This document shows, one piece after another, positions 1 through 55,652 of a stretch of 64,000 nt of DNA (positions within the stretch are counted from its first letter, which is position 1; every line of letters begins with the position of its first letter). Source of the DNA: Melghirimyces profundicolus (lineage in GTDB: Bacteria; Bacillota; Bacilli; Thermoactinomycetales; DSM-45169). A model generated the notes under the pieces. The model had not been told where the DNA came from, ran no database searches, and saw only the letters and a program-made list of their open reading frames with translations. The translations under genes and the position numbers were made by a program. Location of the stretch: assembly GCF_003054245.1 (NCBI RefSeq), contig NZ_QBKR01000015.1, positions 1 to 64,000 of the forward strand. The letters run 5' to 3'.

Positions 1-301
1 AGCACAAGTCTCGCCTGGGTCGCTTGTGCTCCCCGGTCTCGCTATGCACTCACAGAGCACAAGTCTCGCCTGGGTCGCTTGTGCTCCCCGGTCTCACTAT
101 GCTGTCCTGCAGGGATGGTTGCACGGTCCGCTCCGAATCTTCCTGCTGCGGGCAGGGGCAAACGCCTGCGGATGCAACCCAGAGAAGCTTTTGCCCCTGA
201 ACGCCCTTGCAGGCTGATTCTCCGCTGGGCAGGACAGCAAAGTCGCTATTTCGGGTAAACGCTTCCCTTCTTCTGAGCCTAACCATAAATCACAACGCTT
301 C
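1..301 (+). mobile_element. MITE-like repeat element, copy 1 (left end outside window)
   Basis: Right-hand part of a dispersed non-coding element found five times in the window. It holds two copies of the ~53-55-bp unit (an inverted repeat AGCACAAG...CTTGTGCT sits inside the unit), then a middle domain with nested inverted repeats GCTGTCCTGC/GCAGGACAGC and AGGGGCAAA/TTTTGCCCCT, and ends with the terminal inverted repeat TCACAACGCTTC at 290-301. No transposase or credible ORF is present. The terminal repeat read on the minus strand supplies the last codons and stop of the neighbouring small gene (290-535). Confidence 0.75.
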
Positions 302-16477: not shown

Positions 16478-16507
16478 AGCCCCCGTCGCTTCGGCGGGGG
16501 CTTTATT
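16478..16507 (+). terminator. Terminator of proS
   Basis: AGCCCCCG / CGGGGGCT stem with a TCGCTTCG-containing loop, then TTTATT. A repeat element starts immediately downstream. Confidence 0.8.
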
Positions 16508-16510
16508 CTG

Positions 16511-16818
16511 GAAGCGTTGTGAAAAAGTGAGCGGCAGCATTTATCCAAAGCCGCTCCGGCTGCACTCACAGAGCACAAGTCTCGCCTGGGTCGCTTGCGC
16601 TCCCCGGTCTCGCTATGCTGTCCGGCAGAGATGGTTGTACTGTCCGCTCCAAATCATCCTGCTGCGGGCAGGGGCAAAAGCCTTCGGATGCCACACAGAG
16701 AAGCTTTTGCCCCTGAACGCCCTTGCTGGCTGATTCTCCGCCGTGCAGGACAGCAAAGTCGCTATTTTGGGTAAACGCTTCCCCTTTTCTCGAAACGAAC
16801 ATTCAATCACAACGCTTC
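16511..16818 (+). mobile_element. MITE-like repeat element, copy 2 (complete, 308 bp)
   Basis: The most intact copy. Terminal inverted repeats are GAAGCGTTGTGA (16511-16522) and TCACAACGCTTC (16807-16818), perfect over 12 bp. Inside, in order: GAGCGGC/GCCGCTC hairpin, one ~53-bp unit, then nested arms CTGTCC...GGACAG and AGGGGCAAAAG...CTTTTGCCCCT, and a second AAACGCTTCCCC near the right end. No ORF of quality. It fills the space between the proS terminator and polC. No clear target-site duplication is visible. Confidence 0.75.
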
Positions 16819-16904
16819 TAGTCCGGCCGGACGGTTTCTGATAAACTCGGAAAAGAAGAGAGAAGCAACACGGAGAGCGGATACTGGAGGTGAAGGGTTT
16901 GTCG

Positions 16905-35131: not shown

Positions 35132-35170
35132 GCAGCCCCCGGAGGGGCCCCGTCCTGCACAATCCTCCTA

Positions 35171-35643
35171 AAAGCGTTGTGATTTCGACCCCAGGCGAGA
35201 CTTGTGCTCTGTGAGTGCATAGTGAGACCGGGGAGTGAAGCGACCCCAGGCGAGACTTGTGCTCTGTGAGTGCATAGCGAGACCGGGGAGTGAAGCGACC
35301 CAGGCGAGACTTGTGCTCTGTGAGTGCATAGCGAGACCGGGGAGTGAGCGACCCAGGCGAGACTTGTGCTCTGTGAGTGCATAGCGAGACCGGGGAGTGA
35401 GCGACCCAGGCGAGACTTGTGCTCTGTGAGTGCATAGCGAGACCGGGGAGTGAGCGACCCAGGCGAGACTTGTGCTCTGTGAGTGCATAGCGAGACCGGG
35501 GAGTGAGCGACCCAGGCGAGACTTGTGCTCTGTGAGTGCATAGCGAGACCGGGGAGTGAGCGACCCAGGCGAGACTTGTGCTCTGTGAGTGCAGCCGGAG
35601 CGGCTTTGGGTGAATGCTGCCGCTCACTTTTTCACAACACTTC
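35171..35643 (-). mobile_element. MITE-like repeat element, copy 3 (expanded, 473 bp)
   Basis: Inverted copy bounded by AAAGCGTTGTGA (35171-35182) and TCACAACACTTC (35632-35643). The middle domain seen in copy 2 (GCTGTCC and GGGGCAAAA arms) is missing, and the space is taken by eight tandem ~53-bp units. The conserved GAGCGGCAGCAT...GCCGCTCCGGCTG end block is kept at the right side. It fills the 660-bp gap between dut and ymxH. Confidence 0.75.
35196..35593 (-). repeat. Tandem array of eight ~53-bp units
   Basis: The hexamer CGAGAC that marks the unit starts at 35196, 35251, 35305, 35358, 35411, 35464, 35517 and 35570, so spacing is 55, 54 and then 53 bp five times. The last five intervals are essentially identical, pointing to recent expansion. 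There is no unique spacer between units, so it is not a CRISPR. Because 53 is not a multiple of three, open frames across it cycle through all three phases and are not genes. Confidence 0.9.
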
Positions 35644-35794
35644 TAAAGTGTTCCGGTCCGTCAGCCCGATTGGACATTCCCAGATCCATACCGCGCCGAA
35701 AAGATAAAAACGTTCTGGTTGTGGAAGGGGCGTTTTTTTCTTTCCGGCATAAGTTCGTCCCTGCTCCGATAATATCTGGTAAGGGGGAGTTCTT

Positions 35795-36043
35795 ATGCGC
35801 TGGAGCGAGTTTGCGGAAAAAGAACTGATCGATGTGGGAGGGGGCGAGCGGATCGGTTCGGTGGGGCAGGCGGATCTTCTCATCGACCCCGAGACGGGGG
35901 AGATCCGGTCCATGCTGTTGCCTGTCGGCTCCTCCTGGTTCGGAAAAAGACAGGAGGTCCGGGAAGTCATTTGGAGCCACATCAAAAAGATCGGTCCCGA
36001 AATGGTGATCGTGGAACGGGGGAACGGCTTCTTTTACAAATGA
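35795..36043 (+). CDS. ymxH: YlmC/YmxH family sporulation protein (PRC-barrel)
   Basis: Small PRC-barrel protein found in spore formers next to the dipicolinate synthase genes; exact function unknown. The 82-residue product has MRWSEFAEKELIDV, the barrel core GERIGSVGQADLLIDPETGEIRSMLLP and a C-terminal region typical of the family. ATG 35795 follows AAGGGGGAG. A terminator follows, so it is likely expressed separately from spoVFA. Confidence 0.92.
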   Translation: MRWSEFAEKELIDVGGGERIGSVGQADLLIDPETGEIRSMLLPVGSSWFGKRQEVREVIWSHIKKIGPEMVIVERGNGFFYK

Positions 36044-36071
36044 TTCAGGATTCCGGCCGACATGACGGCCG

Positions 36072-36107
36072 CGGGCAGGGGCCCATCGCCCCCGCCCGTT
36101 TTATTTT
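36072..36107 (+). terminator. Terminator of ymxH
   Basis: CGGGC-A-GGGGC pairs with GCCCC-C-GCCCG around CCATC, followed by TTTTATTTT. Confidence 0.85.
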
Positions 36108-36142
36108 GCATGGATACCCGAAAGGAGACGGGGCTTCCGGTA

Positions 36143-36170
36143 ACCGAAGCGGAAGTCCTGACATATGATG
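36143..36170 (+). promoter_or_regulatory. Candidate sigma-K promoter of spoVFA-spoVFB
   Basis: AC at 36143-36144, 17-bp spacer, CATATGATG at 36162-36170; this resembles the sigma-K consensus AC...CATANNNTA. The B. subtilis spoVF operon is under sigma-K in the mother cell, which supports the call, but the -35 is short and could occur by chance. Confidence 0.4.
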
Positions 36171-36252
36171 CAGGAGAAAGCGGCGACTTCCCATAGGGAG
36201 AGGTCCCCGCCGCCAAGGGGTGCTCCCCCGGGAAAGGGGTCATTCAGGCGAA

Positions 36253-51548: not shown

Positions 51549-51802
51549 GAAGTGTTGTGAAAAAGTGAGCGGCAGCATGTACCCAAAGCCGCTCCGGCTC
51601 CACTCACAGAGCACAAGTCTCGCCTGGGGTCGCTTGCGCTCCCCGGTCTCGCTATGCACTCACAGAGCACAAGTCTCGCCTGGGTCGCTTGCGCTCCCCG
51701 GTCTCGCTATGCACTCACAGAGCACAAGTCTCGTCTGGGTCGCTTGCGCTCCCCGGTCTCGCTGTGCTGTCCTGCAGAGATGCAGGCACTGTCCAACGCT
51801 TC
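51549..51802 (+). mobile_element. MITE-like repeat element, copy 4 (254 bp)
   Basis: Left end GAAGTGTTGTGA (51549-51560), the GAGCGGCAGCAT...GCCGCTCCGGCT block, three ~53-bp units, then GCTGTCCTGCAG and a shortened right side ending at a decayed terminal repeat (51791-51802, ending CAACGCTTC). The middle GGGGCAAAA arms are deleted. It sits between the nup terminator and ymfF. Confidence 0.7.
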
Positions 51803-55357: not shown

Positions 55358-55652
55358 AGAAGAAGGGAAGCGTTTGAATGGCGATGGCGGAGACAGCCGG
55401 CAAGGGCTTCAGGGGCAAAAGCTTCACTGTGTTGCATCCAAAGGCGTTTTGCCCCTGCCCGGGACGATTTGGAGCGGACAGTGCCACCTCCCTGCAGGAC
55501 AGCATAGCGAGACCGGGGAGAGAAGCGACCCAGGCGAGACTTGTGCTCTGTGAGTGCATAGCGAGACCGGGGAGAGAAGCGACCCAGGCGGGACTTGTGC
55601 TCTGTGAGTACAGCCGGAGCGGCTTTGGGTACATGCTGCCGCTCACTTTATC
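55358..55652 (-). mobile_element. MITE-like repeat element, copy 5 (ends decayed)
   Basis: Inverted copy containing, left to right, GGGAAGCGTTT, the AGGGGCAAAAG...GTTTTGCCCCT arms, GGACAGC, two ~53-bp units, and the GCCGGAGCGGC...GCTGCCGCTCAC block. Both outer terminal repeats are lost: the right end changes from the conserved CACTTTTTCACAAC to CACTTTATCAGGG. It lies between ymfI and ymfJ. Confidence 0.7.

Follow-up and report, generated by a model that had tools for sequence, protein, structure and literature searches.

The first 64,000 nucleotides of a Melghirimyces profundicolus contig, the stretch analysed here as a whole and called the window below, hold five related elements that carry a ~53-nt unit. 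The question raised by this locus, and by copy 2 in particular (the focal element), is whether a single kind of mobile DNA is present or one kind inside another. We consider it probable that two mobile elements are nested, namely an IS1182/IS5-like MITE and a mobile unit of 53-56 nt, for which a single-strand mover is most likely. The interest of the locus lies in this apparent nesting of mobile DNA in mobile DNA, in which the unit is carried by MITEs with several end types. The movement of the smallest bacterial hairpin repeats is mostly unsolved, and a covarying unit with exact ends, for which filled and empty sites can be paired, makes mobility directly testable.

The outer element in the window and in the genome

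The source genome (G000) is a 3.77-Mb draft in 67 contigs, and the window is the beginning of one of them. Units were located using a covariance model built from 21 aligned seed units that came from eight genomes. The model finds 16 units in the window, with two in copy 1, one in copy 2, eight in copy 3, three in copy 4 and two in copy 5. The initial annotation had described five copies of a common design with 1 to 8 units each; all five were recovered close to where it had placed them. The features are as follows.

1-300, minus strand: copy 1, truncated at the contig start, with its right end TCACAACGCTT at 290-300
1-44 (cut by the window start) and 45-99, minus strand: the units of copy 1 (covariance model)
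16480-16506, plus strand: terminator-like hairpin that belongs to the gene upstream and lies immediately ahead of the copy 2 insertion (by eye)
16508-16511, no strand: left 4-bp flank of copy 2, CTGG; the right flank is CTAG at 16818-16821, a target duplication with one mismatch
16512-16817, plus strand: copy 2, the focal MITE, with 11-bp inverted ends at 16512-16522 and 16807-16817
16529-16556, plus strand: end block hairpin of copy 2, GAGCGGC (16529-16535) and GCCGCTC (16550-16556), read from the sequence
16561-16615, minus strand: the single double-hairpin unit of copy 2 (covariance model, 83.6 bits)
16617-16754, plus strand: middle domain of copy 2, with nested inverted repeats GCTGTCC...GGACAGC, read from the sequence
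35172-35642, plus strand: copy 3, with a CTAA flank on either side
35181-35593, plus strand: tandem array of eight units in copy 3, of 39 (the first, partial), 55, 54, 53, 53, 53, 53 and 53 nt
51550-51801, minus strand: copy 4, its right end shortened with 7 bp kept, and CGAG at both flanks (read by eye)
51599-51654, 51655-51709 and 51710-51764, minus strand: the units of copy 4 (covariance model)
55358-55652, plus strand: copy 5, its ends diverged (read by eye)
55505-55558 and 55559-55612: the units of copy 5 (covariance model)

The true inverted end measures 11 bp (AAGCGTTGTGA), and the next outer base is part of a 4-bp target duplication. Terminal inverted repeats, which had been proposed for the whole set, are present in this form, with both ends at two or fewer mismatches in copies 2 and 3 only among the five window copies. 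Relatives of the copy 2 middle domain (query 135-259 of the focal element) occur in other genera. In G005 this domain stands twice in tandem, in an array without a unit match (L033, G005:C1:112019-112412; read by eye).

Throughout the source genome, the 11-mer AAGCGTTGTGA has 228 exact occurrences, compared with a single one for a control with its letters reversed. The 321 bp of the focal element give at least 51 matches (the best 40 of 325 candidate stretches were scored), and the unit is found at least 189 times (137 candidate stretches scored). The prediction of hundreds per genome is borne out by these end and unit counts. The density, from which it had been drawn as one per ~13 kb, is uneven: 16 units lie in the 64-kb window and 0 in another 20-kb stretch.

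In the G000 sequence examined, 34 elements have both ends at two or fewer mismatches. Their 4-bp flank pairs are identical in 18 cases, with one mismatch in 11, two in 2 and three in 3, while exact pairs would be expected in 6.4% when left flanks are compared with the right flanks of other elements. YTAR, the target sequence of IS5, fits 10 of the 18 exact target duplications.

Empty sites were sought in G008, a genome of the same genus. At the copy 2 site, neither ends nor units are present in 1.3 kb, and a similar terminator-like hairpin stands at the same place (by eye). Ends and units are likewise absent at the copy 3 site, yet this is not a clean empty site because both G008 and G009 have a small ORF at that place. 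This ORF, which follows the gene at the copy 3 site and does not occur in G000 (window 35132-36219; L231; L233 684-887; by eye), may be a small gene that was lost with the insertion. The copy 3 gap in G009 holds two other, unit-free elements with different ends (L233 1003-1131 and about 1195-1340), the first of which has IS1182-type ends and CTAG at both flanks. The inverted ends, the 4-bp target duplication and the absence of copy 2 from the sister genome support the designation of the outer element as a MITE, a kind of element already known, to which it adds a new member. A phage or plasmid origin was rejected, copy 2 having no match in a plasmid collection and copy 3 none in a phage collection.

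A crude ORF survey of 30 G000 copies placed 17 between same-direction genes, 4 between convergent and 2 between divergent genes, with 7 unclassifiable. An ORF of at least 90 aa, not necessarily a gene, overlaps the element in 15 of these 30 copies, so that the description of the copies as lying only between genes is not proven. Long open frames enter or begin in the element at three G000 loci (L007 818-1765, L010 1-1722 and L022 1512-2504). Judging by such frames, some element copies may supply protein ends.

Decayed IS1182/IS5-like transposase genes flanked by MITE ends occur in Paludifilum halophilum (G009) and Kroppenstedtia guangzhouensis (G004), both Thermoactinomycetaceae according to the NCBI taxonomy. 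In K. guangzhouensis (L081), a broken IS1182-like gene has TCACAACGCTT followed by CTAG on its right side and a shortened left end beside CTAG. In P. halophilum (L095), a frameshifted IS1182-like gene starts with CTAG followed by AAGCGTTGTGAAAAAGT and adjoins a MITE copy; the right end of this relic was not found. The P. halophilum relic pieces carry DUF772 and DDE_Tnp_1 and have their best match in the IS1182 model (151 and 88 bits, cut-off 270), with IS5 models next. The partner of the MITE is IS1182/IS5-like, with no narrower assignment. Elements of the G008 IS1182 type were discarded as partners, as no such end was found in those loci. A full-length transposase element sharing the MITE ends, envisaged by the initial annotation, was found in broken copies only (L081 and L095) and nowhere intact. 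Its reading of the copies as MITE-like is supported by the 4-bp duplications and the unoccupied copy 2 site in G008. Because the IS1182/IS5-like relics bear the same ends, mobilisation in trans by a transposase of the relic type, though not necessarily at present, is likely.

Bacterial MITEs of IS1182/IS5-type IS resemble the outer element in their inverted ends, target duplication, lack of a gene and IS relics with the same ends; the outer element differs in that it carries between 1 and 8 copies of a unit that itself looks mobile. IS1272, a member of the IS1182 group, leaves no target duplication according to the part of the source consulted (PMC5678879), in contrast to the 4 bp found here.

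Exact insertions of the unit

The unit is a module of ~53-56 nt. One of its strands forms two hairpins, and (T)AGCGAGAC stands before each of them. The covariance model matches 17 of 42 genomes of the order at E <=0.001 and 30 of 398 genomes of the class (Bacilli) at E <=1e-5, with copy counts that are lower bounds since 137 (order) and 14 (class) candidates were scored per genome. G003, a single-contig genome, has 183 unit matches. Among the genera, the outer ends vary while the unit is common (loci read by eye).

Pairs of sequences with and without the unit define its ends. A 5S rRNA gene of 222 nt in G040 (L157 1369-1590, G040:C23:62607-62828) contains two different units, of 53 and 52 nt, and compared with an intact 5S gene of the same genome it gives 116 matches and 1 mismatch with 0 bases lost. 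G040 also has three 5S matches of normal length, one being the compared gene, and seven that are short and partial. A unit in G034 is interrupted by a second, divergent one of 54 nt, and the 56 bases of the interrupted unit are those of its neighbour. An element context in G009 has a 55-nt unit that is missing from another copy of the context in the same genome, namely the copy beside the copy 3 site (97 matches and 9 mismatches, with other differences farther out). Two element copies of G003 differ by a 53-nt unit (unit A; L034 versus L056), with 25 mismatches elsewhere. A second module of 50 nt with a similar last hairpin (module C) occurs at one place in some elements of G003 and G004 and is lacking there in others. 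Precise loss is possible in the G009, G003 and module C pairs, because those copies differ elsewhere too.

The common frame is insertion of the unit directly 3' of a C, with the unit starting in A and ending in GTGC; equivalently, a single C is doubled. In the clean pairs no target is lost, and no duplication beyond the C is needed. The base before the unit is C in 52 of 57 contexts, which were hand-picked from 94 model matches with later array members and near-duplicates left out and some related contexts remaining. The unit had at first been taken for an internal part of the element. It is instead a separate module, because other genera carry it together with different outer ends (loci read by eye), and because it is found in 30 of the 398 Bacilli genomes and inside a 5S rRNA gene.

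An alternative is that only the MITE is mobile, and that the unit is an internal tandem repeat which lengthens and shortens by slippage and came into other MITE families by recombination between similar hairpins. Units are indeed often in tandem, many stand at homologous places of related elements, and half units lie inside arrays, such as the single-hairpin half unit of ~26 nt within an array of full units in G003 (L150). We nevertheless judge this explanation improbable, in view of the precise insertion of single units in a 5S gene and within another unit, and of exact ends common to contexts without shared flanks.

Several G000 contigs (C2, C3, C4, C7, C12, C14, C19, C26, C42, C45 and others) start or end in unit arrays. 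The arrays seem to break the assembly, and their true lengths may therefore be larger.

Structure, strand and conservation of the unit

In the seed alignment, both partners vary in 6 of 14 pairs, and its covariation score was reached by 0 of 500 shuffles. Four of five measures were above the shuffles; the exception was further pair types, a value reached by 243 of 500. In the 94 matches, 131 cells were changed on both sides, compared with 38.6 after shuffling and at most 21 with slid partners; these matches came from 60 chosen loci, 78 of them were distinct, and all were aligned to the model, which biases them towards it. In the 3' hairpin, U-G and G-U predominate at two neighbouring pairs (60/75 and 60/76). 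They would be mismatches on the other strand, which would make the structure strand-specific. Several units have GNRA-type loops. Weak model matches at L159, L161 and L219 are without the usual unit ends and may be due to chance.

Mobility by itself does not account for this RNA-like structure. A functional RNA, either a cis element or a small RNA, that is under selection and merely spread by MITEs would be expected to show covariation, G-U pairs confined to one strand and GNRA-type loops. The genomic positions argue otherwise. Among 17 tandem gene contexts, 8 units are sense and 9 antisense to the genes, which is no strand bias, and units are nested in other elements and absent from G006. No unit stands at the copy 2 and copy 3 sites in G008 or in the adjoining stretches read in G009 and G007; neither of these two sites gives support for conservation of an RNA at the same positions, which the initial annotation had set against mobile DNA. 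A named family is not apparent either, as Rfam 15 gave no match at the gathering score over the unit in the window and 30 loci. The Rfam matches in unit loci are tRNA, 5S rRNA, L21 leader and Bacillaceae-1 only, none of them a unit family, and units lie inside the 222-nt 5S match of L157/L236. We regard an RNA function as the origin of the pattern as unlikely too.

The unit is up to 97% identical to that of another genus (G002), whereas around copies 2 and 3 the identity of the larger collinear pieces to G008, G009 and G007 is 67-77%. The greater similarity of the unit across genera is only suggestive, because the genome pairs differ.

The focal element matches 9 of 10 genomes of the family. 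A BIME/REP-like structural role, in which the unit would be a protein-binding chromosomal repeat, could draw on its high copy number and frequent location between same-direction genes, and is very improbable given that G006, of the same family, has no focal-element or unit match, that G005 has only 3 units, and that neither the GTAG nor the CGTC tag given for the REP superfamilies in the part of PMC3733652 consulted is seen beside the unit hairpins (by eye).

A possible route of movement and related repeats

Two nested mobile elements are the explanation that we prefer. The outer ~300 bp would be a gene-less MITE derived from an IS1182/IS5-like IS, whose 11-bp ends would be recognised in trans by a transposase that inserts the MITE with a 4-bp duplication, often at YTAR. 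The unit would be a mobile element itself, inserting directly 3' of a C and having C as its own last base, as suggested by the precise insertions. Because the last bases of an inserted unit resemble those preceding it, a new target would be formed at the unit end, and insertion at this target, or slippage, could give rise to arrays of 1 to 8. The unit would also spread along with the MITEs that carry it.

In the movement of IS200/IS605 and REP elements, HUH/Y1 transposases cut and rejoin hairpin-bearing single-stranded DNA. IS200/IS605-type enzymes insert 3' of a fixed base without target duplication, and gene-less derivatives of these elements are known as PATEs. The unit is like PATEs in its insertion 3' of a fixed base, in the lack of a duplication and in strand-specific hairpins near its ends; it is far shorter, and no Y1 element with unit ends occurs among the loci examined. 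By this analogy, a single-strand, HUH-like route is our best guess, with a mover that most likely cuts and rejoins hairpin-bearing single-stranded DNA in an HUH/Y1-like manner, although none was linked to the unit.

In order to find such an enzyme, units were compared with Y1 genes. Y1 matches are absent from G003, G004 and G008, all of which are unit-rich. Among 42 genomes, 13 have both units and Y1 genes, 4 units only, 9 Y1 genes only and 16 neither, a loose association (p = 0.014, kinship not corrected). An end-motif scan of 22 Y1 loci, an end comparison and the unit model applied to 33 Y1 loci revealed no Y1 element with unit-like ends; the three matches of the scan are two complete units (L062 and L067) and one end-like match (L076). 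No unit lies within about 1.2-1.6 kb of the RAYT-like Y1 genes at L283 and L284. Since Y1 is absent from these three unit-rich genomes and no Y1 locus examined has unit-like ends, either the mover is a non-Y1 enzyme or many unit copies are old.

REP/REPIN sequences with RAYT are similar to the unit as short hairpin repeats of high copy number with tandem or paired units. The unit differs in having two hairpins in direct order, and several unit-rich genomes are without RAYT. The small dispersed repeats of cyanobacteria, reportedly treated by Elhai in 2008, and the double-hairpin elements of Allomyces mitochondria are tiny, hairpin-forming and situated inside other repeats or RNA genes, like the unit; their sequence and hosts differ from it. 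No description of the unit itself was found in the open-access literature searched. Pieces of its sequence were matched in papers that, going by their titles, concern Trypanosoma, Leishmania and Ralstonia.

A broader claim, to which we give slightly less than an even chance, is that the ~53-nt double hairpin forms by itself a complete mobile element of Bacilli, one of the smallest known, that moves as a folded strand by a single-strand mechanism. It would use MITEs with many different ends as vehicles, form tandem arrays and enter structural RNA genes, and it could be the source of 5S rRNA expansion segments.

The unit is a concrete candidate source for insertions in 5S rRNA genes. In the part of PMC7812874 consulted, 5S expansion segments are foldable insertions of 13-109 nt, often beside normal copies, reported in Clostridiales, Halanaerobiales, Thermoanaerobacterales, Alteromonadales and Halobacterales. 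The present case differs from these in that the host belongs to Bacilli and the insert is a member of a dispersed repeat. The literature examined, including that part of PMC7812874, gave no dispersed repeat as a source of 5S expansion segments in Bacilli.

Of 13 unit-bearing genomes, 6 have no 5S match; in one that was followed, part of the rRNA operon reads N. In G059 (L215 125-410, G059:C32), a Bacillaceae-1 match (RF01690) lies directly before a 5S-like remnant, not called as 5S by Rfam, that has a unit at the corresponding 5S place and unit-like sequence farther on. In G054 (L209 / L241, L242), the spaces between tRNA genes that follow a 5S gene contain units, in two cases with an identical left flank.
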